Below are positions 5,065 to 52,284 of a stretch of 64,000 nt of DNA, in pieces. The notes beneath the pieces are model-generated. The model was not told the DNA's origin. It ran no database searches and saw nothing but the letters and a program-made list of their open reading frames with translations. The DNA comes from an uncultured Acidimicrobiales bacterium. Its GTDB lineage: Bacteria > Actinomycetota > Acidimicrobiia > Acidimicrobiales > SZUA-35. Where the stretch lies: positions 1-64,000 of the forward strand of contig CALAJQ010000011.1 in the NCBI GenBank assembly GCA_937922785.1. The letters are read 5' to 3'. The first letter of the stretch is position 1. Each line of letters starts with the position of its first letter. The translations under genes were made by a program, and so were the position numbers.

Positions 5065-5942
5065 CGCTTGCCCAACGCTTCGTCCAAACGCTCCAGCCCC
5101 TCAGGACCTGGCACGGCGATCCGGGCAACTCCACTCATTCCGAAGCTGGCGCAATCTCGCACGATGACTCCCTGTGGGGCGAGCTGCTCTCGAAGACCTT
5201 CGGCCTCGACGAGTACCCATGGTGCGTCGGCGGCATCCGCTACGAGCCCGTGCGATTCGACAACGTCGACTAGCTCGGCTCGGGCCTGCGAAATCGATTG
5301 TGCCCAACCGGACAAATCCGCAGCTGCGATCATGTCGGGAATGACGGCGAGTGCGAGTGAGCTGACTGACCAGAGGGGCTGCAACGGTGCGAGCTCGTCG
5401 ATGTTGTCGGCAATCACAAAGCCGAGGCGCAGACCGGGGCAAGCAAAGACCTTTGTCAGCGAACCAACGACCACACCCGGTCGGTTGGCGGTCCAGTCGC
5501 CCGTCGCCATCGGGTAGAACGCTTCATCCCAGACGTCGGCGGTTTCGGTAGGCCCGGCGAGACGGCCGCTTGGGCTCTGCGGATTGCTGCGCCACCTCGG
5601 TCCTCTTCCGTTTCGTGGGTGCAGCGCGAATTCTGGCTCGTTGTCTACTTGGCCGCCCAGGTGCCGTGCAACAAGCGAGATGGCTTCGCTGCCACCGTTG
5701 GTCAACAGTAAGCGGGCCCGATCGACCCCCATTGCATCGGCCAAGGCCGCGGTTGCGGGCGCAGGATCTGGATACCAGCCGACGGTGTGAAGATTGCGGC
5801 CAATCATGGCGCTGACGCTTGGGGCGAATGGATTGAGTGTCTGGGATAGGTCGAGGATCTCGGCAGGGTCAAGCCCCAGTGACAGCGCCAGTTTCGGCCC
5901 GTCGCCACCGTGGGTTCCTGCACTTGGTACCGAACTCGGCAT
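5061..5942 (-). CDS. CobC/threonine-phosphate decarboxylase-like PLP enzyme
   Basis: Fold type I aminotransferase family (HisC/CobC). The N-terminus THGGD near residue 10 and DLSQTLNPFAP are typical of CobC-type threonine-O-3-phosphate decarboxylase, which makes the aminopropanol phosphate used by CobD. The likely PLP lysine is K164 in GSLTKVFACPGLRLGF. At 293 residues it is shorter than the ~350 usual: the stretch between LTNGGSEAISLVA (80-92) and NPQSPSG (120-126) is abbreviated, so part of the large domain that holds the cofactor is missing. Activity is therefore uncertain. Overlaps cbiZ by four bases and follows the methyltransferase by a TGATG junction. Confidence 0.75.
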   Translation of the reverse strand: MPSSVPSAGTHGGDGPKLALSLGLDPAEILDLSQTLNPFAPSVSAMIGRNLHTVGWYPDPAPATAALADAMGVDRARLLLTNGGSEAISLVARHLGGQVDNEPEFALHPRNGRGPRWRSNPQSPSGRLAGPTETADVWDEAFYPMATGDWTANRPGVVVGSLTKVFACPGLRLGFVIADNIDELAPLQPLWSVSSLALAVIPDMIAAADLSGWAQSISQARAELVDVVESHGLVADAADAPWVLVEAEGLREQLAPQGVIVRDCASFGMSGVARIAVPGPEGLERLDEALGKR

Positions 5943-6868
5943 CAGGCATCAAGCAAGGACTGGGCGACCTTGCGAAGATGGTCTGGGCCGATACCGCAAC
6001 ACCCTCCGAGCATCGTCGCACCTGCCGCTTGCCACGCCGGGAGATACGCGACGTATTCGTCGGGTGTGATCACCCCGTCATGGGTGAACTCGCCATCAAT
6101 TATGGCCCCGGCATGCGCGTAGGCACCCAGCGGGCCGCCCCAGTGTTTACCGACCACGGGTAGACAATGCTCGACCAACCGCACGTCGGTGTGCATGATG
6201 CACAAGGCATCGACCGCCTCATAGCTTGCGGCGAGCTGCACGCCCTCGTGGAGAGCTCCACCATCACGAAGCTCAATGGGGTTCGTGAGTTCTTCGGGGC
6301 CGTGACCGAGTTCGCCGCCAATAGAGAAACCCACCCACACTGGAAGACCGACTGAAGTTGCTGCGTTTAACGTCGCCTCAAGCCGGGCAAGGTCGACCAT
6401 CATCTCCAGGCTCAGGAATTCAGCGCCAGCGTCACGCATGATCTCTGCCTGGCGCACGGTATCCGTTTCAAGCTGGGCAAGCGTCGGGTGATGACCAGAA
6501 AAGCTCCAGTTGCTGATGCCGGCCCCAACAACAACCGACGCTCCATCATCTCCAGCCGCGTCTCGGGCTGCCACCGCGAGTTCAACCGCCGTCCGGTTCA
6601 ACGTCTCGAAATCGGCATCTGTGCCGACATCGCGCAGAATGTTCGCTCCCGTCGCAAACGTGTTGGACACGATCAGGTCGGCTCCAACTGCGAGATAGTC
6701 GTTATGGATCGATCGAACGATCTCGGGGTGGCTAAGTGCGGCGCCACCACTCCATCCATGCTCGTGGTTTTCCACGCCTCGTCGGTGGCATTCCGATCCC
6801 GTCGCTCCATCGATTAAGACCGGTTCACCAGCTCGGGCTCGAGCTATCAGATTCGCATAGCGCTCCAT
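5942..6868 (-). CDS. Homocysteine S-methyltransferase family protein
   Basis: Zn-dependent methyltransferase of the MmuM/BHMT family (308 residues from the ATG at 6868). It opens with a typical PVLIDGATGSE, and the zinc ligands are visible as Cys in VDALCIMHTD and the pair GGCCGIGPDH near the end. The family methylates homocysteine to methionine using S-methylmethionine, betaine or a related donor. An in-frame extension to 7021 exists, but it lacks family similarity. First gene of an overlapping operon with the corrinoid genes, a link that makes sense if both serve methyl-group metabolism. No clear Shine-Dalgarno sequence was seen. Confidence 0.82.
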   Translation of the reverse strand: MERYANLIARARAGEPVLIDGATGSECHRRGVENHEHGWSGGAALSHPEIVRSIHNDYLAVGADLIVSNTFATGANILRDVGTDADFETLNRTAVELAVAARDAAGDDGASVVVGAGISNWSFSGHHPTLAQLETDTVRQAEIMRDAGAEFLSLEMMVDLARLEATLNAATSVGLPVWVGFSIGGELGHGPEELTNPIELRDGGALHEGVQLAASYEAVDALCIMHTDVRLVEHCLPVVGKHWGGPLGAYAHAGAIIDGEFTHDGVITPDEYVAYLPAWQAAGATMLGGCCGIGPDHLRKVAQSLLDA

Positions 6869-15716: not shown

Positions 15717-16429
15717 CGTGTCCGACTCCGCAGTGTGTATCCGACGCCGCGGATGGTATAAATCAGCGGATCGTTCTCATGGTCAAGCTTCTTGCGCAAA
15801 TAGCTGATGTAAGTCTCGACCGAGCCTGCCTCCCCGCCGAAGTCGTAGTTCCAGACATGACCGAGAATCTGTTGCTTCGAAAGCACTCGTTCGGCGTTCA
15901 TCAACAGGTATCGCAGCAGTCGCCACTCTGTCGGCGAGAGATCGACCTCTCTCCCCGCTCGAGTAACCACATAAGTGGATTCGTCCATCACAACATCGGC
16001 GTATTCAACAAGGTCCGGTTCGGTCGTTCCAACGGTCGCCCGCTTGAGCACGGCACGAATCCGTACGACTACCTCTTCGAGGCTGAACGGCTTGGTTATG
16101 TAGTCGTCACCGCCGATGGCGAAACCCGATAGCAGATCTGCCTTTGTGTCTCGAGCAGTCAAGAAGATCACGGGCACCGAGTTCCCCGCCGACCGCAGCC
16201 GACGACACACCTCCATCCCGTCGATGTCGGGCATGAGCACGTCGAGCAGGATCAGATCGGGCTCAAAGGAGCCTGCTTTGGCGAGCGCCTCGAAGCCATT
16301 GGCCGCGATGTCCACCTCAAAATCCTGGAACCGAAGCGACGTCGACAGCAGGTCGACCAGATACTCCTCGTCATCAACGACCAGGATGCGTTGCTTGTCC
16401 GCGAAGGGCTCGGTCATCCCTTCAGTCAA
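15713..16429 (-). CDS. OmpR-family response regulator
   Basis: A 238-residue receiver plus winged-helix output protein. The acidic pocket is VDDEE (18-22), the phospho-acceptor Asp is D63 in LLDVLMPD and the Lys is in ITKPF (~114). The C-terminal DNA-binding domain contains LSPTEWRLLRYLL and GSVETYISYLRKKLD. It overlaps both the MMPL gene upstream and the kinase downstream by four bases. An internal ATG five codons in is an alternative start. Triple 11-bp repeats found upstream of the MMPL gene and again next to this start are its likely binding sites. Confidence 0.93.
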   Translation of the reverse strand: MTEGMTEPFADKQRILVVDDEEYLVDLLSTSLRFQDFEVDIAANGFEALAKAGSFEPDLILLDVLMPDIDGMEVCRRLRSAGNSVPVIFLTARDTKADLLSGFAIGGDDYITKPFSLEEVVVRIRAVLKRATVGTTEPDLVEYADVVMDESTYVVTRAGREVDLSPTEWRLLRYLLMNAERVLSKQQILGHVWNYDFGGEAGSVETYISYLRKKLDHENDPLIYTIRGVGYTLRSRTR

Positions 16430-18861
16430 TCAGACGAACCTGGGAGAAACCTGGGAGAAGGCTGAGAGGAGCTGGAACGCCATTGGTGGTAGGCCGCCCA
16501 AACGATGAGCATTGGCGGCACAACTACGATCGAAGCAATCAATGCGTAGAGAATCGTGATGCCGGTGACGAGGCCAAACTGTTGGAACGGCAGTTGCGGG
16601 CTGAGTAGCAACACGGCGAATGCGAGCGCCGTAGTGAGCGCCGATCCGATGAGCGCCGACCCCGTCGTCGAAAGCGTTGTCGTGGTGGCGTCGATCAGCG
16701 ACTTGCCGTGTTCCAACTCTTCGGTGAAGCGGTGGATGATGTGGATCGTGTAGTCAACACCAATGCCAATCGACAGAGCGGTGATCAACGCGGTCACCAC
16801 GTTGTACGGGATGTTCAGGAGCGTCATCGAGCCAAGCACCCACAGCAGAACGAGCAGAATTGGCGACACAGCGATGAAACCGAGCATGGGTTTGAATTCG
16901 GTTACCCAGAAGAAGATCATCAACACGATGAGCGCGGCGAGCAGCGTGATCGCTATTGATGTGGTCTGACCGTCGGTCATGGCACCGGTAATCTCGAGCG
17001 CCGTGATGTCGCCCGAGGTGGCGGTGATCTGATCTCGGTCGCCGAACCAAAGGCCTTCGATGTCCTCAACCATCTGCGTGGTCACGTCCAGGTCACCAGT
17101 GAAAGCATTGAACTGCACCAAGGTCAGGTCGCCACCTTCTGGATTGTTCACTGCGACTTGGGCGAAGCCGACCGGGTCGACCTCTTCGAGCCTGTCGAGC
17201 ACGGCCTGGACACCAGCAGGGTCTACGGTCAGGCCTTGGTCGATGCCTTGCGCCAGATCTACGAGTTCGGGGTCATAGTTGTCTCCCGGTTGACCACTGT
17301 CGTTGAACCAGTCACCGAAGAGCGCTCCGAGGGACAGAGTGATGTCTCCCGCTACGCCGGTCGGACGTGAGAGCTCGTCGCCGAAGGACTCGCTCAGGGT
17401 CAACAGGTTCCGCAGGGTGCGATCGTCGGTTAGTTCCGCCTCGATCAAGGTTGTCGTGAGAATGGTTTCACCCCCGAGTGCCTCGTTGATGGCTTCGATG
17501 TCTTCGATTGAGTTACTGCCGGACGGCAGGAAATCGTTCGAGTTGAACTCGGTGCTGATCTGGGTAGCAGCGACTCCCAAACCAATCGTGACGATGCCTG
17601 CGGTGGCGAGGACGATCATCGGCTTGGCTGCCACCAAATCACCGATTCGCTGCACAAACGCTCCCGCCCCCGGGATGGCGTCGGTCATCTGCCTCGCGTG
17701 GCCGAGCTTGCCAGCGGCCTCGCGGCGTCGATCGAGGAGTGACCGTGCGGCGGGAATCAAGATCAGCATGGTGAACAGACCGAAGAAGACGCCGAAGGCG
17801 GCAACAACACCAAAGTCGCCGTTAGCTGGAATCGACGATGTCAGGTTCGTCAGGAAACTGATGATTGTCGTGCCCGCAGCAAGCCCCAACGGCAGCGCCA
17901 CCCCTTTAAACGCGCCCCGAGTCGCGTCTGCGACGGAAGACCCATCGCCACGGAGTTCCCGGTATTTGGCCACAGTCTGGATCGAGTAGTCGACAACAAG
18001 GCCGACCAGCATGATCGGCACCATCGAAGTCAACGAGTTGGGCGCGCCTATGAGGCCTAGGCCGTCGGGCCCGGCCACCCCTTCAAAACCGAGGGTGCCA
18101 ACAATGGTGATTGCCAGCCCAGCAAGTGACAGGGCAACGTCGGATCCGCTGCGGAAGAAGAGAAACAGCAAGACCGCTATAACCGCCAGTGCACCCATCA
18201 TGAGAGTCCCCATCGACGGCGAAGCCTCCGCCGAATCCAGATTTCTCGTCGCACTTGACATACTGCGGACCGAGAGCGGACCGTCGACCGTCTCGACCGC
18301 ATCGGCGACGAGAAGTTCGACATCTGCCGTCGCATCGGAGTCACCTAGCGAACGGAGCTTGATCGACGAGATTACGAGCGGCTCGCCGTCGGCCTCCCCG
18401 CTCAGATTGCTCAGGACAGCAGCGATCTGGGGGTCCGCCGCGACGGTCTCTATGGCTTGTTGGGAGACTCCGCTTAGGTTCTGCACGCCTAGTGCCTGCT
18501 TGAACACCCCAGCCACCGACGTGCCCGGGTTTGTCAACGCCAACCGTTCCTGCACACTGGGTTCGGAAACGGCCGCAGCGATGACGCGGTCGATCTGGTT
18601 GAGGCCATGGGGAGTGAGGAAGTCGCCGCGATGAATGATGGTGATGGGGCTGAGCCCGGCGGTGTCGGGAAACGACTCATCCAGGGTGTCCGACGCGTCG
18701 GCAACGTCGCTGCCGGCAGGCAAGAACACCTCGTTGCCGGCCTGGGGCTGGCGCAAGCTCATACCGCCCGCCAGAGCGGCGGTTACCAGCCCTAGCAGTG
18801 CAAGCGCCGCAACGGGCTTGCGCGTGACGACCCCAGCGATCGATTCAAAGAACTTACCCAT
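16426..18861 (-). CDS. MMPL/RND-family membrane exporter
   Basis: An 811-residue RND transporter of the MMPL (SSD-like) class with about 12 membrane helices. These fall in two repeats: one helix, a large extracytoplasmic loop, then five helices. Conserved intramembrane stretches are IMLVGLVVDYSIQTVAKYRE (~285-304) in the first half and SIGIGVDYTIHIIHRF in the second. The N-terminus MGKFFESIAGVVTRKPV is typical. Family members move lipids or lipid-like molecules, or are drug exporters driven by protons. First gene of the operon with its own two-component system; the response-regulator repeats lie 81-113 bases upstream. Confidence 0.9.
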   Translation of the reverse strand: MGKFFESIAGVVTRKPVAALALLGLVTAALAGGMSLRQPQAGNEVFLPAGSDVADASDTLDESFPDTAGLSPITIIHRGDFLTPHGLNQIDRVIAAAVSEPSVQERLALTNPGTSVAGVFKQALGVQNLSGVSQQAIETVAADPQIAAVLSNLSGEADGEPLVISSIKLRSLGDSDATADVELLVADAVETVDGPLSVRSMSSATRNLDSAEASPSMGTLMMGALAVIAVLLFLFFRSGSDVALSLAGLAITIVGTLGFEGVAGPDGLGLIGAPNSLTSMVPIMLVGLVVDYSIQTVAKYRELRGDGSSVADATRGAFKGVALPLGLAAGTTIISFLTNLTSSIPANGDFGVVAAFGVFFGLFTMLILIPAARSLLDRRREAAGKLGHARQMTDAIPGAGAFVQRIGDLVAAKPMIVLATAGIVTIGLGVAATQISTEFNSNDFLPSGSNSIEDIEAINEALGGETILTTTLIEAELTDDRTLRNLLTLSESFGDELSRPTGVAGDITLSLGALFGDWFNDSGQPGDNYDPELVDLAQGIDQGLTVDPAGVQAVLDRLEEVDPVGFAQVAVNNPEGGDLTLVQFNAFTGDLDVTTQMVEDIEGLWFGDRDQITATSGDITALEITGAMTDGQTTSIAITLLAALIVLMIFFWVTEFKPMLGFIAVSPILLVLLWVLGSMTLLNIPYNVVTALITALSIGIGVDYTIHIIHRFTEELEHGKSLIDATTTTLSTTGSALIGSALTTALAFAVLLLSPQLPFQQFGLVTGITILYALIASIVVVPPMLIVWAAYHQWRSSSSQPSPRFLPGSSD
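16436..16468 (-). promoter_or_regulatory. Three 11-bp direct repeats beside the regulator start
   Basis: On the minus strand: CTCTCAGCCTT, CTCCCAGGTTT, CTCCCAGGTTC in tandem. The array lies inside the 3' end of the MMPL gene and ends 7 bases before the regulator's first codon. The same arrangement occurs upstream of the MMPL gene. It would suit autoregulation, though a position so near the start fits repression or an internal start better than activation. Confidence 0.5.
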
Positions 18862-42980: not shown

Positions 42981-43538
42981 TCAGGTGGACGAAAGCTGTT
43001 GAATCACCCAGATGGCGTCCTGATCCGGCGGGAACACTGGGTAGTGGACATCAGTGATCGTGCCGTCAATGACGATCATCGTCAACCGTCGAAGCAAGAC
43101 CACACCGCCCACTTCCATCGTCGGTAGTTGGAGCGCTTCGAGCAAGCGATGATTTGCGTCAGAGAGTAGCGGAAAGGGCAAACGCAGCCGCTCGACCGCT
43201 TCGCTCTGATAGCCAGTGTCTTGTGTGGCGACACCGAACAACTGATCGCAGCCAATTTCGCTGAGCTCGGCGAAATGGTCTCGGAACGAACAACTCTGTG
43301 GCGTACATCCACGGGCACCCGGGATCATGTCCCAACCGTCGGGCAGCGCAACCCCGGGCCGCCCTGTCATGGGGTAGCAATAGACGACGGTGGTTCCAGT
43401 GAGCGAAGCCAGATCCACTATTGCTCCCTCGGTCGATCCCAGAGGCACCGCTGGCAACTCACACCCAATCAAGTGGTCGGCGTCCCCCTCATCCAGCGGC
43501 GAAGGGATAGAAGCCCAATCAACGTTCTCCAACGACAT
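42981..43538 (-). CDS. Peroxiredoxin (AhpC/TSA family, Prx-like)
   Basis: A 185-residue thioredoxin-fold protein. VVYCYPMTGRPGVALPDGWD (~52-71) and IPGARGCTPQSCSFRDHFAELSEIGCDQLFGVATQD (~73-108) match AhpC/TSA proteins. In these, the peroxidatic Cys is in GCTPQSC; two Cys there could give a disulfide. The usual PxxxTxxC has the Thr. A GGAGG about 11 bases ahead of ATG 43538 supports this start instead of an upstream GTG. It presumably reduces peroxides using a thioredoxin-like donor. Confidence 0.8.
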   Translation of the reverse strand: MSLENVDWASIPSPLDEGDADHLIGCELPAVPLGSTEGAIVDLASLTGTTVVYCYPMTGRPGVALPDGWDMIPGARGCTPQSCSFRDHFAELSEIGCDQLFGVATQDTGYQSEAVERLRLPFPLLSDANHRLLEALQLPTMEVGGVVLLRRLTMIVIDGTITDVHYPVFPPDQDAIWVIQQLSST

Positions 43539-43642
43539 AATCTTCAGCACCTCCAGACAATCGGGTCGACCATTCGGGCGACGCCAGGACCTTACAACTC
43601 AGCGTGGTGGACGGCGGGGCAATTCGACCCGAACAGCAGGCA

Positions 43643-44497
43643 TCAACTCACGATGTCTCGGTTCCTGAAGGCGAATAACGAGACGCTGGCTGCCACCGCT
43701 CCGTAGAGGAGCGTGAGCCCCAGCGCCGACGACCAGGAGAGGTCGGCGGTCCCACCGGCGGCGAGGGCGCTCAAGGTCCCGCCCGGCAACAGATGTGTTA
43801 TGTCGGGGGCGGTGATCCCAATGAGGTTCTCCACCACAAGAAGCCAGCCGATGCCAACGCCTATTGCGGTACCAGAGCTTCGAGTGAGCACGGCAATGGT
43901 CAAGCCGATCAGGCCCCACACAAGAACCGGAACTCCGAAGTTGAAGAAGCCGGACGCCATCTCGGCTGCCGCATCGGTCTTCCATGGTTCAGTGTCGACC
44001 TCATATGCCCGGGCGAGTGGCCGGGCAACCGCCGACGTTATGAACACTGTCGCAACAGACAACAAGACGGTGAAGAAGCTGAGCGCAATGATCTTGCCAC
44101 CCAACAGTCTCAGTCTGGAAGGCTGAGCCTGGACGAGCACCCTGATCAGTCCGCTGTCGTAGTCACTGGCTGCTGCGATCGCCCATAGAGACAGCACAAC
44201 AATGCCAGCGAGCGTGCTTATTGAGCCAAGAGCGTGGATCATGCCTCCCGCCTGCTCGAGGTCGGCTGCGGTAGTGGCCGCACCACCGGGCCCTGGGGGG
44301 CCGGCAGCCGCGCTCGGATCGGCGAGCGACGAGTAGATGAAGTACGAGATCAGTACCGAGAAAGACGCAAGGACGCCAAAGCCGCCGTAACGGAACGAGG
44401 GGCGCCAGATTCGGATCCACTCGGAACGGATCGTATTGATCAGACCGGGTGCGCTTGCGACCGAATCAGTTGTCTTGGTGGTGAGGGTGCTGTTCAT
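43643..44497 (-). CDS. ABC-2 type exporter permease
   Basis: A 284-residue membrane protein with six hydrophobic segments (~38-55, 95-112, 140-160, 187-215, 235-245, 260-277). The preface RPSFRYGGFGVLASFSVLIS and the sequence SDYDSGLIRVLVQAQPSRLRLLGGKIIAL (~112-140) are typical of ABC-2 permeases of the drug/antibiotic type. Its ATG overlaps the ATPase stop by four bases. Downstream of the two-component system and box-controlled. Confidence 0.88.
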   Translation of the reverse strand: MNSTLTTKTTDSVASAPGLINTIRSEWIRIWRPSFRYGGFGVLASFSVLISYFIYSSLADPSAAAGPPGPGGAATTAADLEQAGGMIHALGSISTLAGIVVLSLWAIAAASDYDSGLIRVLVQAQPSRLRLLGGKIIALSFFTVLLSVATVFITSAVARPLARAYEVDTEPWKTDAAAEMASGFFNFGVPVLVWGLIGLTIAVLTRSSGTAIGVGIGWLLVVENLIGITAPDITHLLPGGTLSALAAGGTADLSWSSALGLTLLYGAVAASVSLFAFRNRDIVS

Positions 44498-45447
44498 GAT
44501 GTTGCTCCGGTCGTTCGTTGTTCGCCTCGGCTCGCAGCGAGCTCGGCGTCGGTTCCTCCGGTGAGCCGTAGAAAGACGTCTTCGAGGTTGTCTTGTTCAG
44601 GGGTCAGCTGCCGAAGAGTGACTCCCGCCTCAGCGGCCGCGCGGCCGACGTCGGCAGAACTCGACGCCGGCGCTTGAACGCGAACCTGGTCTCCATGGGA
44701 CGTGTACTCCCAGCCTCGGGACTCGACTGCGCCGATCAGCTGTGGGAGGTCGGTGCCGAATTCGGGAACGGCGATGACCTGCTCAACAGCGTCTTCCATG
44801 AGGCCCGAAAGCGAACCCGAGTAGAGAAGCTTGCCGAATCGGATTACCACCAGATCATCGGCCATGGCTTGGATCTCGCTCATGAGATGAGACGACACGA
44901 CAACGGTCCGTCGGCCGTCCGCCAACGACTTCAGTAGAGTTCGGATCTCGACGATGCCGGCCGGGTCGAGGCCGTTCGTCGGCTCATCGAGAACCAGAAG
45001 CTCCGGATCAGGCAACAACGCGGCAGCGATGCCAAGGCGCTGTTTCATTCCCAGCGAGAAGGTCGAAGCTTTGTCTTTCTCACGACCGGCGAGCCCAACG
45101 ATTTCGAGCACCTCGTGGATTCGTTGCTCGGAGATCCCCCGAAGTGCTGCCATGCTCCGCAGGTTGTCCCAAGCCGACAGCGAACCGATGAAGGTCGGTG
45201 CTTCGATGAGCGCTCCGACTCGATGAGCGAACCGCTCGGGATGGGTAATCGGCTCGCCAAGCACGGTTCCGACGCCGTCGCTCGCCTCGATGAGACCCAG
45301 CAACACCCGGATCGTCGTGGACTTGCCTGACCCATTGGGACCGACAAATCCCACGACTCCCCCGATCGGCACCTCGAACGTCAGATTGTCCACGGCGGTA
45401 AGTTCGCCGAATCTACGGGTCAGACCCTCCGCAGTGATTGCACTCAT
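44494..45447 (-). CDS. ABC exporter ATP-binding protein
   Basis: A 317-residue ATPase with all motifs: Walker A GPNGSGKST (35-43), Q-loop-equivalent IEAPTF, signature FSLGMKQR (~130-137), Walker B LLVLDEPTNGLDP (~148-160) and H-loop SSH. The ~90-residue C-terminal extension is like drug/bacitracin-type exporters (DrrA, BcrA). With the overlapping permease it forms an exporter. A copy of the 22-bp response-regulator box lies 99 bases upstream. Confidence 0.93.
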   Translation of the reverse strand: MSAITAEGLTRRFGELTAVDNLTFEVPIGGVVGFVGPNGSGKSTTIRVLLGLIEASDGVGTVLGEPITHPERFAHRVGALIEAPTFIGSLSAWDNLRSMAALRGISEQRIHEVLEIVGLAGREKDKASTFSLGMKQRLGIAAALLPDPELLVLDEPTNGLDPAGIVEIRTLLKSLADGRRTVVVSSHLMSEIQAMADDLVVIRFGKLLYSGSLSGLMEDAVEQVIAVPEFGTDLPQLIGAVESRGWEYTSHGDQVRVQAPASSSADVGRAAAEAGVTLRQLTPEQDNLEDVFLRLTGGTDAELAASRGEQRTTGATS

Positions 45448-45545
45448 GATGTTTCCTGTTTCATCGGCCGTTCATCCTCTGTGGTTGGGAACGTGTTGTT
45501 GGGAACGACCTCACAGTACGAACAGCATCTGAAGGCAGCATCAGC

Positions 45546-45567
45546 GTTTCCTGCGGAGTTGCTGAAG
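45546..45567 (-). promoter_or_regulatory. 22-bp response-regulator box upstream of the ABC-2 exporter
   Basis: Minus strand: CTTCAGCAACT followed by CCGCAGGAAAC, two 11-base halves. It agrees at 18 of 22 positions with the box at 47723-47744. It is 99-120 bases before the ATPase start and directly after the kinase stop. Confidence 0.6.
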
Positions 45568-45575
45568 AATGAGCG

Positions 45576-46949
45576 CTACTGATCCAGCGGAAGCGAGATA
45601 GTTATGGTCGTGCCGTCTCCCACGGTCGAAACCGCGTCTATTTGACCATGGTGGGCTGCGACGATGCCCTGTGCGATCGCCAGGCCGAGACCTGACCCTC
45701 CGGCGAAACGTTCCCGTCCTGTGTCAGCTCGGTAGAAACGTTCGAACAGATGGTCGAGATGTTCGGGTTCGATGCCCGGCCCCTCGTCCGAGATTCGTAT
45801 GCGCACGCCCGTTTCGTCTTGCCCGCAGGCGAGCATGATCCGCGCCGTCGGTGGCGTGTGAAGAAGCGCGTTGTTGATGATCGTGGTCAGCGCCTGGGTC
45901 AGCTGATGGCGATCGCCAGCGATGTTCACTCCTTCGTCGACATCTGAAACGTCGATCGGACGCTCGGGCTGGATTGCCGAGGCGTCGGAGGCGAGGTCAC
46001 CAAGTAGCTGCGAAAGGTTGATGGTTGAGTATTCGAGGGGTCGATCCTCGTCGAGCGAGGCCAGGGTCAGCAGATCGTCGACCAACGCTTCCATACGTTT
46101 GCTTTCGCTGTGAATCCTGGCCATCGCGTCGTCGGTTTCTGTGGCGCTCAGCTGGCCGCTTGCGTGGAGCGCTGCATAACCCCGCAGTGTGGTGAGAGGC
46201 GTCCGTAGCTCGTGAGATGCGTCGGCAACGAAGCGCCGCTGACGTGCTTCGGTTGCTTGGCGCGAATCAAGCATCGCGTTGAACGCGAGACCCAACCGGC
46301 CCGCCTCGGTGGCCACCGACGGGTGTTCGACTCGGTGATCGCTACGTCCGGCGGCGACATCTTCGGCGGCCTTGGTAACCGACTCGATCGGTCGGATTCC
46401 AAGTCGGTCGACCGACCAGAGGGCCGCGGCCAACGCCGCCAGAACAACACCGAGAGCGATTCCCGCAGTGATAAGCATCTGGTTCTGCGCTTCGTCGGCT
46501 GCCCGCGTCGAGATGGCGAAGACCAAGTGACCAGGACCAACGTCGGTGACAACAACTCGGGCCCGAGTGTCGCTGTCCAGAGCATCTGCGGAGAATGGCT
46601 GACTCGTTTCTGCTGCTTGCTCGAGGTCGGCATCGGAGACGTCGGGGACCAGATCGGGTTCGGAAACTGGACGCGCCAATACCTGGGGTTCGGTTGCGCC
46701 ATCACCAACGAACGCAACGTAGAGCTCTCCTGTCACCAGAGGCGCGTCAGGTCTTGGTTGCGGGTTCGCAGGGAACTCCCCTGCGATCCTCTCGACGCCT
46801 CGGCTGATGTTGTCCGAAACGACCAACAGCTGAGAATCGAGCTGGCCGATGAGCACGCTTCCTTGACGGGCCGACACATATGCCAGCGCAGCGACGACGG
46901 TGATCGTCACGACAAGCGCCGCCAGCAAGAGTCGGGATCGCAGCGTCAC
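45576..46949 (-). CDS. Sensor histidine kinase of the exporter-linked system
   Basis: A 457-residue membrane kinase. TM1 is at ~8-26, an extracytoplasmic domain at ~28-155, TM2 at ~158-180 and HAMP to ~232. The HisKA motif RRFVADASHELRTPLTTL has the phospho-His at 246. Then follow the N box LTTIINNALLHTP, G1 DEGPGIE, F box FYRADTGRE and G2 GSGLGLAI. Start overlaps the regulator's stop by four bases. Flanked by two exporters, it may detect an antimicrobial or membrane stress. Confidence 0.93.
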   Translation of the reverse strand: MTLRSRLLLAALVVTITVVAALAYVSARQGSVLIGQLDSQLLVVSDNISRGVERIAGEFPANPQPRPDAPLVTGELYVAFVGDGATEPQVLARPVSEPDLVPDVSDADLEQAAETSQPFSADALDSDTRARVVVTDVGPGHLVFAISTRAADEAQNQMLITAGIALGVVLAALAAALWSVDRLGIRPIESVTKAAEDVAAGRSDHRVEHPSVATEAGRLGLAFNAMLDSRQATEARQRRFVADASHELRTPLTTLRGYAALHASGQLSATETDDAMARIHSESKRMEALVDDLLTLASLDEDRPLEYSTINLSQLLGDLASDASAIQPERPIDVSDVDEGVNIAGDRHQLTQALTTIINNALLHTPPTARIMLACGQDETGVRIRISDEGPGIEPEHLDHLFERFYRADTGRERFAGGSGLGLAIAQGIVAAHHGQIDAVSTVGDGTTITISLPLDQ

Positions 46950-47629
46950 GACTGGCGACGAATCGTGTATCCGACACCTCGAACAGTCTCGATGAGCTGT
47001 TGTTCAGAGCCGCCGAGCTTTTTGCGGAGCGACGAGATGAACGTCTCTACGATGGCCGATTCGCCGTCGAAGTCGTACTCCCAGACATGGTCGAGGATTT
47101 GGCCGCGTGACACGACCCGACCAGTGTTGGTGAGTAACAGGCGACAGAGTTTGTATTCGGTCGGGGTCAGGTGGACAACTTCACCTGCCTTGGTCACAAG
47201 ATGGGCATCTTCGTCAAGCTCGACATCGCCAGCCGCCAGAATTGCAGATGTTTCGCCAAGCCCGGTTCTGCGTAGTGCTACCTGGACCCGAGCCACGAGT
47301 TCCTCCAACGAAAACGGTTTGGTGATGTAGTCGTCGCCGCCAGCGGTCAGACCCTTCACTCGGTCTGCGGTTGAGGTCTTCGCGGTCAAGAACAGGACGG
47401 GGGCAGTGTGACCGCGAGAACGGAGAATTCTAAGAACATCGAGACCATCGATGTCTCCCAACATGATGTCCAAGACAAGCACGTCTGGCCTGAAGCTGTC
47501 CGCAAGACTCAAGGCGGAGCTGCCGGTCTCGGCCGTCTCGACTTCCATCCCCGCCATCCGCAAGGCCGAGGCCACAAGAAACGAGATGTTCTCCTCGTCA
47601 TCGACCACTAGAACCTTCGCTTCGCTCAT
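46946..47629 (-). CDS. OmpR-family response regulator of the exporter-linked system
   Basis: A 227-residue receiver/winged-helix regulator. Acidic cluster VDDEEN (9-14), phospho-acceptor D54 in VLDIMLGD, Lys in ITKPF (~104) and the DNA-binding part LTPTEYKLCRLLL and VETFISSLRKKL. First gene of the pair and divergent from the adaptor-MacB operon. Its own upstream region, that of the adaptor operon and that of the ABC-2 operon each contain a copy of a 22-bp double repeat, making this the best candidate for the binding protein. Confidence 0.93.
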   Translation of the reverse strand: MSEAKVLVVDDEENISFLVASALRMAGMEVETAETGSSALSLADSFRPDVLVLDIMLGDIDGLDVLRILRSRGHTAPVLFLTAKTSTADRVKGLTAGGDDYITKPFSLEELVARVQVALRRTGLGETSAILAAGDVELDEDAHLVTKAGEVVHLTPTEYKLCRLLLTNTGRVVSRGQILDHVWEYDFDGESAIVETFISSLRKKLGGSEQQLIETVRGVGYTIRRQS

Positions 47630-47670
47630 ACCTAGACAGCATGGTCCAAGTTCCTGTGGGTTGTTCTAAC

Positions 47671-47692
47671 TAATCCTGAGGATTTCCTGAAG
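47671..47692 (-). promoter_or_regulatory. 22-bp response-regulator box ahead of the regulator gene
   Basis: Minus strand: CTTCAGGAAAT followed by CCTCAGGATTA, matching the box at 47723-47744 at 18 of 22 positions and 42 bases before the regulator start. Fits autoregulation. Confidence 0.6.
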
Positions 47693-47722
47693 ATTCGGCG
47701 GCACGACTCACAGGCCGTGGAT

Positions 47723-47744
47723 CTTCAGGAAACCCGCAGGACTC
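47723..47744 (+). promoter_or_regulatory. 22-bp response-regulator box ahead of the adaptor operon
   Basis: Plus strand: CTTCAGGAAAC followed by CCGCAGGACTC, ending 39 bases before the adaptor ATG. It is oriented towards that operon, whereas the box at 47671 faces the regulator gene; together they mark a divergent regulatory gap. Confidence 0.65.
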
Positions 47745-47783
47745 CCTTAAGTAGGCGTCAGCTTGGGGGTCTAGGTTCTAACC

Positions 47784-49529
47784 ATGAACTCCAACCAAGC
47801 GAAGAGCTCCAGGCGAGCCATTGGACTCGCACTTGTCCTGTCACTAACCGCAGCGGCTTGTGCAACATCAGCAACCGGCGAAACCGAGATTGCCGCCGGC
47901 TTGTACGCCCAAACCTTCGATGACGACCGACCCCTTGAGGACAAGGTCGACACTGATGGTGACGGCGAGATGAGCGATGATGAGATATCGGCCTATGCCC
48001 AATGGGTCTTGTTGGACTTCTCCGACTGCATGCGCCAGAACGGCTACCCCGACTTCACCGACATCTCCATCGAGGATTTAACCGAGGGCTCCGGGTCGGG
48101 CCAAGGCCGCTTCATCGGGCTGATGACTCAACGTGGTGTCCCACTTCCCGACGGGGTCCCGACCATTCAGCTGTGCGGTGAGAATCTCTCAGACCTCCAG
48201 ACCTTTGCCCCGGAGCCCAGCGATGACGAGCAGGCCGAGCTTGAAGAAAACGTGTTGGAGTTTGCTGCGTGCATGCGAAGTGAAGGTCTGACGAATTGGC
48301 CCGACCCCGACTTTGCCGCCAACGGCGGAAACGGATACGGCCCCGGGCTACTGGAAGAGTTCGACATTCAGTCAGATGAAGTCCAGTCAGCCATCGCCAC
48401 CTGCCAAGCCGCCAACAGCGGCGCTGTCGACGTAGGCAGCGACGAAGCAGATAGTGAATCTGACTCCGACTCTGACGCCGACACTGACACCGACTCGGCG
48501 GACGAGGTCGACGCAGAAGACCCCGAAGCTGGCGACCGAACCGCAATCAGCCCGGTCATCGAAAGCGACACCAGCGATCTCAACGTTGCAGAGGTCGCCC
48601 GGCGTGACCTAGTGCAGACCAAAACATTCGCTGCAGTCCTCGACTATGGCGAATTGCGGCCTCTACCTACCAACACCACGGGAATTATCACCGAGTTACC
48701 GAGCGTTGGCGACACCATCGAGTTTGGCGAGGTGCTCTTCGCAGTTGATGGCCAACCGGTACTGCTGTTCGAAGGAGATTCACCCCAATACCGTTCGTTC
48801 AACGTTGACATGACCGACGGCGCCGACGTCGAACAGCTCGAAAGAAACCTGGCCAACTTCGGGTATGCAGACGACTTCGACCTCACCGTCGACGACGACT
48901 TCACTTACGTCACCGCTGACGTGATCGAAGAGATGCAGATTCAGTTCGGATTGGAAGAAACTGGTGAGCTTGGCCTCGGGCGAGTCGTCTTTTCCCCAAC
49001 GCCGGTTCGGATTGGTGCAGTCAACGTCGAACTCGGGCAGTCCGTTAACTCCCAAGTCAACGTGGTAAGCGTGACCGAGAGCGAGCAGCGAATCACCCTC
49101 GACCTTGAAGCCGAAGATCTTCTTCTTCTGCCCGCAGGCACCGATGTAGATATTGAACTGCCCGACGGCACAGTCGTTGCGGGTCGGGTGTCTGAAGTCG
49201 CCGCGGTCGCAACTCAAACTGTCAACCAACAAGGATCCGCCGGTGACCCGACTATCGAAATCACGGTCGTGTTCGCCAGTGGAACTCCCAGCGAAGTGTT
49301 CGACGCAGCCCCGGTAGACATAATCGTGGCCGACGAGGTAAGCCTCGACGTCTTGACGGTTCCAGTTCCCGCGTTGATCGCGATGTCTGGGGGTGGTCAC
49401 GCCGTTGAGCTGATCGTCGAAGGCGGCACTCAGCTGGTGGCGGTTGAGCTTGGCGACTTCGTGGATGACCACGTGGAGATCCGAGGCGACCTTCGAGAAG
49501 GCGACCGAGTTGTCATGGCGGGTAACTGA
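47784..49529 (+). CDS. Lipoprotein adaptor with EF-hand and CMR-repeat N-terminal region
   Basis: A 581-residue multi-part lipoprotein. The signal peptide ends in lipobox LTAAAC (C26). A calcium-binding-like EF loop, DTDGDGEMSDDE, is at 56-67. Two similar blocks, FSDCMRQNGYPDFTD (79-93) and FAACMRSEGLTNWPDPD (160-176), with further Cys at 131 and 207, probably form a disulfide-bonded region. A Ser/Asp-rich linker (220-245) leads to a membrane-fusion-protein-like part: a peptidoglycan-binding-type helix bundle (~345-392), then beta-barrel and membrane-proximal segments to 581. It probably bridges the MacB-type exporter to the cell wall. First gene of an operon with 1-base spacing to the ATPase. 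Confidence 0.8.
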   Translation: MNSNQAKSSRRAIGLALVLSLTAAACATSATGETEIAAGLYAQTFDDDRPLEDKVDTDGDGEMSDDEISAYAQWVLLDFSDCMRQNGYPDFTDISIEDLTEGSGSGQGRFIGLMTQRGVPLPDGVPTIQLCGENLSDLQTFAPEPSDDEQAELEENVLEFAACMRSEGLTNWPDPDFAANGGNGYGPGLLEEFDIQSDEVQSAIATCQAANSGAVDVGSDEADSESDSDSDADTDTDSADEVDAEDPEAGDRTAISPVIESDTSDLNVAEVARRDLVQTKTFAAVLDYGELRPLPTNTTGIITELPSVGDTIEFGEVLFAVDGQPVLLFEGDSPQYRSFNVDMTDGADVEQLERNLANFGYADDFDLTVDDDFTYVTADVIEEMQIQFGLEETGELGLGRVVFSPTPVRIGAVNVELGQSVNSQVNVVSVTESEQRITLDLEAEDLLLLPAGTDVDIELPDGTVVAGRVSEVAAVATQTVNQQGSAGDPTIEITVVFASGTPSEVFDAAPVDIIVADEVSLDVLTVPVPALIAMSGGGHAVELIVEGGTQLVAVELGDFVDDHVEIRGDLREGDRVVMAGN

Positions 49530-49530
49530 G

Positions 49531-50217
49531 GTGCCCGCAGTTCTAGAACTTCGAGGAGTCACTAAGTCATACGATGGCGACCCGCCAATTGAGGTACTTA
49601 AGGGAATCGACCTCACCATTGAGGAAGGCGAACTAGTGGCAATCGTCGGGCCGTCTGGTTCGGGCAAGAGCACTTTGCTCAACATGATGGGAGCGCTCGA
49701 CCGACCGACTTCGGGCGATGTGCTCATCGACGGAGCAGTTGTCAACGGCTTGGGCGACTCTTCCCTATCGGGCGTGCGTGGCCGGCGACTTGGATTTGTG
49801 TTCCAACAATTCCATTTGCTGGCGGGTCTGACCGCAACCGAGAACGTGGCAACCGGGCTGCTCTATCACGGCTCCAGTGCGCGTGAACGAAAAGCCCAAG
49901 CCCGCGAGGCCCTCACCCGGGTTGGCCTCGGCCATCGGTTAGACCAGAAACCAGGAAAGCTGTCCGGAGGCGAACGGCAACGGGTCGCAATCGCTCGGGC
50001 GTTGCTGGGAGACCCGGCAATCGTCTTGGCCGATGAGCCCACCGGAAACCTCGACTCAACAACGACCGGGGAAATCGTTGAACTCTTCCTCGAGTTAAAC
50101 CAGCAGGGCTCGACGATTGTGATGATCACCCACGACCCAGACCTCGCACGGTCGATGCCGCGGGTCGTCGAGATCTTGGACGGCGAAATTCGCCTCGATC
50201 AGGTCGCAACGTCATGA
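49531..50217 (+). CDS. MacB-type ABC transporter ATPase
   Basis: A 228-residue ATPase from a GTG one base after the adaptor stop. Walker A GPSGSGKST (~39-47), Q loop FVFQQFHLL, signature LSGGERQR, Walker B IVLADEPTGNLD and H-loop ITHD match the LolD/MacB-ATPase type. It overlaps the permease by four bases. It powers a MacB-like mechanotransmission exporter, using the adjacent adaptor. Confidence 0.93.
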   Translation: MPAVLELRGVTKSYDGDPPIEVLKGIDLTIEEGELVAIVGPSGSGKSTLLNMMGALDRPTSGDVLIDGAVVNGLGDSSLSGVRGRRLGFVFQQFHLLAGLTATENVATGLLYHGSSARERKAQAREALTRVGLGHRLDQKPGKLSGGERQRVAIARALLGDPAIVLADEPTGNLDSTTTGEIVELFLELNQQGSTIVMITHDPDLARSMPRVVEILDGEIRLDQVATS

Positions 50218-51440
50218 CCGAACTCGCCACAGCCCCCAATCACCGAAGTCGGCTTCGTCTCGTTGATGTCGTCTCCCAAGCGCTGCTTGGGCTGACCAGT
50301 CGCAAGCTTCGCACCGCGCTCACGGCGCTCGGCATATCTATTGGCATTGCTTCGCTCATCAGCATTCAAGGCATCACCGAAGCGAACCAGGCCGAGGCCA
50401 GGGCCGAGATTGATGCGTTGGGCTCTGACTTTCTGTTCATCACCGCGGGAACCGGCATCACTGAAGAGGCCGAGCTTCTCCCCTATGCGCCCGACATGCT
50501 GGAAACGCATCTGGACGCTCTGGAATATGTAGCCGCCCTCTACCCGGTCGACGCCCGGGCCAGGAAGAACGAACTTATCCCCGAGGTGCAAACTGGCGGG
50601 GTAACGGTGAGCGCCATAACTTCGACGGGCCTAGACCTGCTCGAGCCAGTTAACGGTTCGGTTGCTTTTGGACGATTTCACGACGCTACCTCGGTAGAGG
50701 TACCTGGCGTCGTGCTTGGGTCGCTGGCAGCCGAACGGCTTGGCATTCGTCATCTGGTTGGGCACCCGACAATCAACATCTCCGGGCACCAATTCGCCGT
50801 CATTGGCGTGTTGAACGAATTTGAGACGCTCAACACCGATCTGAACCGAACGGCAATCGTCGGACTGTCCGTTGCCCAAGAACTGTTCGACACGCCCGAC
50901 ACCCCAAGCGCCATATATGCCCAGGTTCAACCCGAACAGCTCGACGAGGCTCGCGACCTTATACCGGCCCAAGCGAACCCGGCCGCCCCCGGCGAGGTCG
51001 CCGTGTCGAGACCAACCGAAGCCTTGGAAATTCGTGAGGTGATCGACGAAACGTTCGCCCGAATTCTGCAAGCACTGGCGTTGATCGTGTTGGCTGTGGG
51101 CGGAATCGGTATCGCCAACATCATGGTTATCTCCGTCATTGAACGCAGAGGAGAGATCGGCCTGCGCCGCTCGCTTGGGGCGACCCGCAAACACATAGCC
51201 TCCCAGTTCGTGATCGAATCGACGATGCTGTCGCTTCTTGGTGGGGTGCTAGGCGTTGTGATTGGCGTCGGAATTGTGCTGGGTTACGCGCAATACAAAA
51301 GCTTCGCAGCCGTTATCCCCTGGTACTGGCTTTCGGTAGGCGTGGCCGCGGCCTTCGCACTCGGAGCAATCGCCGGCCTCTATCCAGCTTGGCGAGCCAG
51401 CCGCCTAGAACCAGCCGAAGCAGTCCGCCCCGCGGCATAA
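50214..51440 (+). CDS. MacB/FtsX-type ABC permease
   Basis: A 408-residue permease. The N-terminal helix (LTSRKLRTALTALGISIGIASLI) is followed by a large extracytoplasmic MacB domain (~60-275) and three C-terminal helices with the FtsX motifs VGGIGIANIMVISVIERRGE and LRRSLGATRKHI. The topology is the four-helix MacB one. Substrate may be a peptide, antibiotic or lipid. Third gene of the adaptor operon. Confidence 0.92.
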   Translation: MTELATAPNHRSRLRLVDVVSQALLGLTSRKLRTALTALGISIGIASLISIQGITEANQAEARAEIDALGSDFLFITAGTGITEEAELLPYAPDMLETHLDALEYVAALYPVDARARKNELIPEVQTGGVTVSAITSTGLDLLEPVNGSVAFGRFHDATSVEVPGVVLGSLAAERLGIRHLVGHPTINISGHQFAVIGVLNEFETLNTDLNRTAIVGLSVAQELFDTPDTPSAIYAQVQPEQLDEARDLIPAQANPAAPGEVAVSRPTEALEIREVIDETFARILQALALIVLAVGGIGIANIMVISVIERRGEIGLRRSLGATRKHIASQFVIESTMLSLLGGVLGVVIGVGIVLGYAQYKSFAAVIPWYWLSVGVAAAFALGAIAGLYPAWRASRLEPAEAVRPAA

Positions 51441-51582
51441 GAACCGATGGTGTGGGCGTGTCGTAAGCCGCGCTCGATAGTGGGCTACTTCAGAGCCACC
51501 TCCGGGCAACAAGCCGAATGACGAGCACCAGGGTGTCGCGTTTGCATCGCACTCCTAGCCATCAGCAACTACGGTGAATCGC

Positions 51583-52284
51583 ATGCAAGTGATCGGCGCA
51601 GGATTCGGTCGAACAGGCACGTTGTCACTCAAACGAGCTTTGGAAGACCTCGGGTTTGGGCCGGCCTACCACATGCAAGAGGCGATGCAACGGCCTGCTC
51701 ACGTTCGGCAGTGGCTCGACTACGCCGAAACCGGAACAGCAGACTGGGATGAACTGTTCGCAAAGTTCAGTTCAGGCGTCGACTACCCGGTTTGTTGCGT
51801 GTGGGAAGAACTCGTATCTCACTACCCAGACTCAAAAGTCGTGTTAACCGTGCGAGACCCGCAGCGTTGGTGGCAGAGCACTATGTCAACTGTCTACGGC
51901 TTCCGGACAGCGTTCGCCCCGTGGTTCCTGCGAGCCGTGCCCACGGCGGGTCGCTTCGTCGACATGGTGGAACGGTTGGTCTGGACCGGATTATTCGATG
52001 GACGCTTCGACGACCGTGATCACGCCATTGGGGTCTTTAATCGGCATAACGAACACGTTCGCGCAACCTGCCCACCTGAGCGGCTTCTCGTGTTCGAGGT
52101 TGCTGACGGATGGGAGCCACTTTGTGAGTTTCTTGACGTACCAGTTCCCGACAAACCATTCCCCCACCTGAACGACACAGCCGAGACAAGACGCATCGTC
52201 ACTGGTGTTAAGTGGGTGACCCGAGCAATTCCCGCGGTTGGCGCTGCGGCGGCTGGTGCGGTTTTGCTAAATGCGCTCGGCTGA
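51583..52284 (+). CDS. P-loop sulfotransferase-family protein
   Basis: A 233-residue protein of the Sulfotransfer_4 type. The PAPS 5'-phosphosulfate loop is GAGFGRTGTLSLKRAL (5-20), and LTVRDPQRWWQS (~88-99) is the 3'-phosphate-binding region. A short hydrophobic tail (AIPAVGAAAAGAVLLNAL) could attach it to the membrane. The ATG three codons after a GTG at 51574 fits the family start; no ribosome site is seen, so it may be leaderless. The acceptor is unknown. Confidence 0.8.
   Translation: MQVIGAGFGRTGTLSLKRALEDLGFGPAYHMQEAMQRPAHVRQWLDYAETGTADWDELFAKFSSGVDYPVCCVWEELVSHYPDSKVVLTVRDPQRWWQSTMSTVYGFRTAFAPWFLRAVPTAGRFVDMVERLVWTGLFDGRFDDRDHAIGVFNRHNEHVRATCPPERLLVFEVADGWEPLCEFLDVPVPDKPFPHLNDTAETRRIVTGVKWVTRAIPAVGAAAAGAVLLNALG

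Follow-up and report, generated by a model that had tools for sequence, protein, structure and literature searches.

A candidate promoter cassette linking a PhoP-like two-component system to two exporter operons in an uncultured Acidimicrobiales bacterium

Background

In Staphylococcus aureus, one two-component system, BraRS, is reportedly associated with two ATP-binding cassette (ABC) transporters, BraDE and VraDE. A comparable locus is described here from an uncultured Acidimicrobiales bacterium (GenBank assembly GCA_937922785.1; genome G000, 4,913,539 bases in 45 contigs). It lies in a window of 64,000 nucleotides (nt) on contig CALAJQ010000011.1 (C11), and all coordinates below are window positions unless another locus is named. 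As with BraRS, one regulator pair appears to be linked to two exporters; unlike BraRS, the exporters are of the ABC-2 and adaptor-MacB types. The connection would be made by three copies of a 22-base pair (bp) box. Judging from their sequence features, the regulator-kinase pair very probably (roughly 0.85) switches on its own gene and both exporters through three promoter copies of fixed geometry.

Direct-repeat boxes of 11-nt units have long been known for PhoB and PhoP (excerpts of PMC4415409 and PMC3413638); the geometry of this locus is unusually rigid. PHO boxes of PhoB and Streptomyces PhoP are described in the excerpt of PMC4415409 as 11-nt direct-repeat units of seven conserved and four less conserved bases, forming simple or complex operators. 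The present boxes likewise contain two 11-nt direct-repeat units, but their half-site sequence differs and their distance to the -10 element is fixed. No phosphate gene was found among the eight window proteins scanned with Pfam. PhoP of Mycobacterium tuberculosis binds as a tandem dimer to 7-bp TCACAGC motifs, the spacer between them being strictly 4 bp, and arrays of three or four motifs are bound more tightly (excerpt of PMC4832192). The boxes described here share the 11-bp period of direct repeats and the CAG within the motif. They differ from the PhoP sites in the half-site, which is CTTCAGGAA / CCNCAGGA (CTTCAGG / CCNCAGG when aligned with TCACAGC, with CAG common and the 5' part different). 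They differ also in reach: 87 genes have been proposed to be under PhoP control (excerpt of PMC3413638), whereas significant matches to the present site are local only. CutR of Streptomyces, from a conserved actinobacterial system, was set aside as a candidate; its motif in the excerpt of PMC12802291, TAWATAAA, is unrelated to the box. MprA was considered on account of its repeats, but the literature offered no usable comparison.

Two further comparisons concern exporter loci. Bce-type kinases are intramembrane-sensing (excerpt of PMC3023708), whereas the kinase described here has a predicted folded extracytoplasmic domain. Lantibiotic-resistance operons of Corynebacterium also place an actinobacterial two-component system beside ABC transporters. 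These operons conferred nisin resistance on heterologous expression, and the same study calls its transporter and kinase-regulator results ambiguous (excerpt of PMC8003753). Unlike the present locus, MacB occurs 0 times in the text available from PMC8003753, and the peptidase type of the Corynebacterium operons is not among the eight window proteins scanned. No paper on this locus was found in open-licence PMC with queries that were not aimed at a named organism.

The three boxes

An earlier note on this sequence had reported three 22-bp boxes, each oriented towards its gene and each composed of two 11-base half units with CAG cores. All three 22-mers are present as quoted, each points at its named gene, and CAG occupies positions 4-6 and 15-17 in all three. 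The boxes stand before the regulator gene (CTTCAGGAAAT CCTCAGGATTA; 47671..47692, minus strand), the adaptor-MacB operon (CTTCAGGAAAC CCGCAGGACTC; 47723..47744, plus strand) and the ABC-2 genes (CTTCAGCAACT CCGCAGGAAAC; 45546..45567, minus strand). The description therefore stood as far as the 22 bp are concerned; the part that did not is the extent of the site, since the box is merely the distal strong half (units 1-2) of a probable 44-bp run of 11-bp CAG units.

The core pattern CTTCAGNAANNCCNCAGGA has three matches in the window at up to two mismatches, all with none, where 0.11 were expected in shuffled sequence; this test is circular, as the pattern was taken from the same sites. Across the genome (4.91 Mb), matches with no mismatch are found at these three boxes only. 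At up to three mismatches there are 147 matches (100 of them listed), against 114 for a control pattern read backwards, and weak matches alone therefore mean little. A non-circular test used a sequence-only profile of 58 columns, built from a gapless alignment of 20 sites from 13 other loci; the window and two loci closely related to it, L061 (genome G059) and L126, were excluded. In the window's own genome, the top three matches of this held-out profile are the three boxes (regulator E-value: 1.2e-4, adaptor-MacB E-value: 1.2e-3, ABC-2 E-value: 6.4e-3). Among the 150 of 1969 first-look candidates scored, five matches have E-values of 10 or less, the remaining two being at 0.36 (inside a reading frame) and 0.87. 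The match at 0.36 is also the sole genome-wide match to the core with one mismatch. It lies on contig C20, within a 702-amino acid reading frame of the opposite strand. Given this position and its E-value it was not counted as an additional regulon member, although it has nAnnnT at position 50 and may yet be one.

Promoter architecture

Downstream of each box, CAG units run on in 11-bp phase and are followed by a -10-type hexamer (nAnnnT) that starts at array position 50. In the regulator array, units 3-4 are degenerate (47649..47670, minus strand), unit 4 being CCACAGGAACT in 11-bp phase; the hexamer is CATGCT (47638..47643, minus strand) and the regulator ATG lies 8 nt beyond it. In the adaptor array, units 3-4 occupy 47745..47766 (plus strand; unit 4 CGTCAGCTTGG), and the hexamer TAGGTT (47772..47777) is 6 nt from the adaptor ATG. 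The ABC-2 array has units 3-4 at 45524..45545 (minus strand; unit 4 CTTCAGATGCT) and the hexamer TACTGT (45513..45518, minus strand), with the ATPase ATG 65 nt beyond. All three hexamers fill array positions 50-55.

To measure this geometry, the consensus CTTCAGGAANNCCNCAGGA was scanned over 19 related loci including the window (287,868 bases). These loci were hand-picked, after inspection of gene context and upstream sequences, from 140 loci with neighbourhoods plus the window. Sites were picked on positions 1-19 alone and positions 20-64 were scored. The hexamer nAnnnT starts at position 50 in 7/8 sites without a mismatch, 8/8 with one and 2/2 with two (17/18 in all); at any other position from 20 to 63 it is found in at most 4/18. 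Among genome-wide look-alikes in the window's genome, used as a control, nAnnnT is at position 50 in 1/27, the one being the C20 match. The 11-bp phase is visible as xAG at position 37 in 14/18 sites and at position 26 in 5/18. The four-unit arrangement had first been spotted by eye; in this test unit 4 and the -10 passed clearly and unit 3 weakly. In the other 122 loci (1,833,884 bases), there are six sites at up to two mismatches. Two belong to L125, which is the same DNA as L061, and the -10 is present in one of the remaining four (C20 again), those of L071, L147 and L185 being without it. When position 7 of the pattern is set to N, L143 also has a site with two mismatches before its regulator gene, without a -10.

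No -35 element was detected above chance: at the proper spacing, the match to TTGACA averages 2.11 of 6 over the 18 sites, compared with 2.29 in shuffled sequence. A sigma-70 scan of 43400-51600 returned two promoter-like sites where 1.8 were expected, none of them at the boxes, which fits promoters without a -35. In terms of sequence features, the -10 is present, no -35 stands out above chance and a putative activator array occupies its place.

The same geometry bears on whether the locus regulator could instead act at the boxes as a repressor, keeping its own genes and both exporters shut until the signal arrives. A repressor would be expected to have its site across the -10 or the start. 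Here 27 bp lie between the end of the strong units and the -10, and with no -35 above chance the promoter would be weak by itself. These properties make repression an unlikely explanation, although PhoP autoregulation has been reported to involve repeats downstream of a reference point that falls outside the excerpt of PMC3413638.

Conservation in related loci

Related loci were taken from the best 80 of 556, and 20 regions were taken from the 185 of 397 genomes with a match; 24 loci on viral contigs (27-55% identity) were not used further. The check proposed in the earlier note, to look for the boxes before orthologous genes, gave a clear result: related loci, in which gene order varies, again have arrays ahead of the regulator, adaptor/lipoprotein-MacB and ABC-2 genes. 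With up to four mismatches in the box and a -10 required, 32 sites pass in the 19 loci and 31 of them precede one of these genes. They are found before the regulator gene (14 sites, recognised by the start of the translated frame), the adaptor gene or its lipoprotein gene (10), the ABC-2 ATPase gene (7) and an unassigned 332-amino acid frame (1). The regulator start codon is 6-8 nt past the hexamer in 14/14 cases, which supports the hexamer by a separate route, and the regulator mRNA may be leaderless.

The adaptor-MacB genes are divergent from the regulator gene in the window, L061, L126, L065 and L234. In L062, L063 and L064 the order is adaptor-MacB-regulator-kinase, and in L127 and L237 the ABC-2 genes are divergent from the regulator gene. 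Most operons retain their own array. This conservation bears on the idea that the boxes are alike only because promoter DNA was duplicated recently, and are not regulated together. In its favour, 31 bp separate two of the boxes, and their intergenic region marks a recombination junction (see below). However, apart from the -10 and the phased CAG, the three promoters of the window have different sequences from box to start codon, and the box and its distance to the -10 persist in other lineages and gene orders. A mere duplication is thus extremely improbable.

The profile gave 25 matches with E-values below 0.01 in ten regulator-bearing relatives, all within approximately 7 kb of a gene for a regulator of this group. 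Eight of these genomes had supplied training sites; G059 and G320 had not. In G059 all three homologous sites were recovered (regulator E-value: 1.9e-5, ABC-2 E-value: 1.3e-4, adaptor side E-value: 6.2e-3), and in G320 two were (E-values: 9.2e-5 and 1.0e-4), with the third at 0.07. Among 18 genomes without a close regulator homologue, defined as having no regulator match at an E-value of 1e-75, 0/18 had a profile match at an E-value of 0.01 or less among the 150 first-look candidates scored in each, the best being 0.042.

Two other observations were made in these genomes. In L238 (position 14618; G320:C99:38618), an array with a -10 stands before the 332-amino acid frame, ahead of a second MacB-type ATPase; these genes are a possible extra exporter of the same regulon. 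Genome G087 has three regulators of the group on contigs C43, C96 and C116, and each contig carries an array match with an E-value below 0.01 (four on C96).

The regulator and its recognition helix

The regulator (227 amino acids; 46946..47629, minus strand) belongs to the OmpR/PhoB family, with the conserved domains PF00072 (Response_reg; E-value: 7.5e-30) and PF00486 (Trans_reg_C; E-value: 8.1e-26), both above the Pfam cut-off. Among the 25 NCBIfam matches listed of 103, no curated equivalog cut-off is reached, the best being PhoB with 207.7 of 296.2. Among solved structures, those of M. tuberculosis PhoP come closest (phmmer E-value: 9e-70). The helix residues of PhoP that face the bases are Asn212, Val213, Glu215, Ser216, Tyr217 and Tyr220, of which Tyr217 and Tyr220 contact the 5' part of the motif (excerpt of PMC4832192). 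In 18 close relatives of the regulator, the residue aligned with Tyr217 is Phe in 18/18 and no Tyr occurs at the position aligned with Tyr220 (Ser 8, Asn 5, Gly 3, Gln 1, Thr 1), whereas Glu215 is retained in 18/18. In the regulator of the window these two residues are Phe197 and Ser200. Among 115 more distant regulators, Tyr is found at the 217-aligned position in 106 and at the 220-aligned position in 95; the division into near and far was made by hand and is not exact, as 3 of the 115 have a near-type helix. As a correlation across these sequences, CAG appears to be kept while the 5' part of the half-site changes together with the residues that read it.

The upstream regions show a related pattern. 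CAG-N8-CAG occurs upstream of 13/18 near regulators, with nAnnnT at position 50 in 11/13 and at position 39 in 7/13. It occurs upstream of 77 of the 115 distant regulators, with nAnnnT at position 28 in 55/77 (for example L139, L142 and L144) and lesser peaks at positions 39 (33/77) and 50 (17/74), the mean over all positions being 7.5%. As these peaks are 11 bp apart, a CAG array abutting the -10 seems common in the regulator family, and in the present group the strong pair is set back upstream by two more units. A CAG pair with nAnnnT at position 28 is likely to be the general layout where regulators of this family have promoters of their own. The window contains a second PhoP-like regulator gene (15725-16393; 51% identical), which has three CAG units with 11-bp spacing at 16440-16480 (minus strand), close upstream of its start, and by eye no nAnnnT at the expected place.

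These comparisons also address whether the boxes belong to another OmpR-family regulator whose gene lies outside this locus. Genome-wide, 37 matches to the regulator have E-values of 1e-3 or less, and the more distant relatives use similar CAG/11-bp sites. Nevertheless, among the candidates scored, significant array matches are confined to loci that encode a regulator of this group, the recognition-helix residues of the group are distinct, and its -10 distance differs from that of the arrays of distant relatives. Control by a different regulator is therefore highly unlikely.

Proposed model

The box, its phasing, the fixed -10 distance, the absent -35, the conservation and the restriction of significant matches to these loci are all computed features. 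The regulon shared under an OmpR-family regulator that the earlier note had proposed is supported by the conservation of the array, the 0/18 matches in genomes without the regulator and the kinship with PhoP and its 11-bp direct repeats. From these features we infer that the regulator binds the array and activates transcription, that a second dimer takes part, and that both exporters share one signal.

The proposed model is as follows. Each box would be the high-affinity half of an activator-dependent promoter that is present in three copies. The adjacent kinase would phosphorylate the PhoP-like regulator, and the phosphorylated regulator would bind as a head-to-tail dimer to the pair of strong 11-bp units, which span about -61 to -40 for a transcript beginning 7 nt past the -10. 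A second dimer would probably sit on the weaker units 3-4, in place of the missing -35, and RNA polymerase would be recruited to the -10, 27 bp downstream of the box. Copies of this one promoter would serve the regulator-kinase genes (as positive feedback), the adaptor-MacB operon and the ABC-2 exporter, such that both exporters rise together.

Several points weigh against this model. The C20 look-alike combines the box with nAnnnT at position 50 (CAAGCT), showing that the combination can arise without an evident role. Sites with three and four mismatches in the 19 loci have the -10 in just 7/10 and 8/22, and the hexamer of the L063 regulator-gene site, which is otherwise good, is one base off. 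Units 3-4 are weakly conserved, with a full CAG at position 37 in 9/18 sites and at position 26 in 4/18. Nor do the 18 sites count as 18 independent events, since they share descent and three of the loci (the window, L061 and L126) are closely related. In 5/19 loci (L063, L128, L238, L240 and L242) no site before the regulator gene passed both tests, although the profile nonetheless finds one in G320, the genome of L238. The profile searches scored 150 first-look candidates per genome (150 of 1969 in the window's own genome), and a site missed at that stage would not show. Finally, one of the other regulators among the 37 matches mentioned above could bind the boxes.

Genes of the locus

The adaptor-MacB genes are divergent from the regulator gene, behind which lie the kinase gene and then the genes for the ABC-2 ATPase and its membrane partner. 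The kinase (457 amino acids; 45576..46949, minus strand) has the Pfam domains HAMP, HisKA and HATPase_c, and its start overlaps the regulator stop. It is predicted to have an extracytoplasmic domain between two long helices: an AlphaFold model of residues 1-190 shows two long helices around a small alpha/beta domain (mean predicted local distance difference test score 86.3). A Foldseek search with this model gave no match at an E-value of 0.001 or less; the best was a WalK model (E-value: 2.0e-3), and several PAS- and Cache-like domains were also weakly matched. By analogy with the types of exporter, the signal could be an envelope-active compound.

The ABC-2-type exporter ATPase (317 amino acids; 44494..45447, minus strand) has the Pfam domain ABC_tran. 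Its best NCBIfam match is a lantibiotic-protection ATPase, below the cut-off of that family. The membrane partner (284 amino acids; 43643..44497, minus strand) was assigned by position, as its match to ABC2_membrane_2 is sub-threshold (E-value: 0.35); that of the L128 homologue is likewise below the cut-off (E-value: 0.0057).

In the divergent operon, the MacB-type ATPase (49531..50217, plus strand) and the MacB/FtsX-type permease (50214..51440, plus strand; Pfam MacB_PCD and FtsX) have the domains of a MacAB-type system and are encoded by separate genes. Their MacB equivalog scores, 241.7 and 97.8 of 966, are under the cut-off, as is the HlyD_3 score of the adaptor (20.7 of 22.2). The adaptor (581 amino acids; 47784..49529, plus strand) consists of a cysteine-containing, lipoprotein-like N-terminal part fused to a PG_binding_1 and HlyD/RND-mfp-like part. 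The N-terminal part (47784-48650) has two CMR-type cysteine motifs and no Pfam match above the cut-off; in L061 its counterpart is a separate gene (5278-6009).

Mosaic structure of the locus

Comparison with two other genomes divides the locus in two over 43642-50375. The DNA is 86% identical to that of G059 over 43642-47714. At the protein level, G059 is close on the regulator side (membrane partner 93%, ABC-2 ATPase 92%, kinase 82%, regulator 93%) and distant on the adaptor-MacB side (best adaptor piece 29%, MacB ATPase 58%, permease 43%). The reverse applies to G226 (adaptor 78%, MacB ATPase 85%, regulator 73%, kinase 46%), whose contig of 4,436 bases ends within the permease. RpoB is 83% identical between the window's genome and G059 and 82% identical for G226, and the three genomes represent three different families. 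Identity in 200-base steps places the crossover at 47600-47800, with the junction inside the intergenic region that bears two boxes.

Trees of the regulator and the MacB ATPase (13 rows) conflict. In the regulator tree the window falls with L061 and L126 (support 100/98), in the MacB-ATPase tree with L234 of G226 (support 100/100), and the opposite grouping is rejected in each (regulator p = 1.2e-4, MacB p = 7.5e-9). Horizontal exchange is the simplest account of this mosaic; the alternative is that duplicated operons were differentially lost.

Because the regulator and exporter operons each carry the same cassette of array plus -10, the array may also act as a portable promoter. Exporter operons could then be swapped by intergenic recombination and come at once under the resident regulator, and the window would be an example caught in the genome. 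We offer this reading tentatively, at slightly less than even odds. If it is true, the window locus joins the regulator-kinase-ABC-2 module of one lineage to the adaptor-MacB module of another.

Implications

This locus presents a complete, testable candidate regulon, of one regulator, three promoters and two exporters, in an order of actinobacteria for which mostly draft genomes were available here. It also provides a rule for finding more members, namely the box followed by a -10 that starts at position 50. A handle on specificity is given by the PhoP-like regulators with this half-site, which share changes at those positions of the helix with which PhoP reads the 5' part of its motif. Finally, the mosaic suggests a way in which exporter operons may change hands and yet stay under control.

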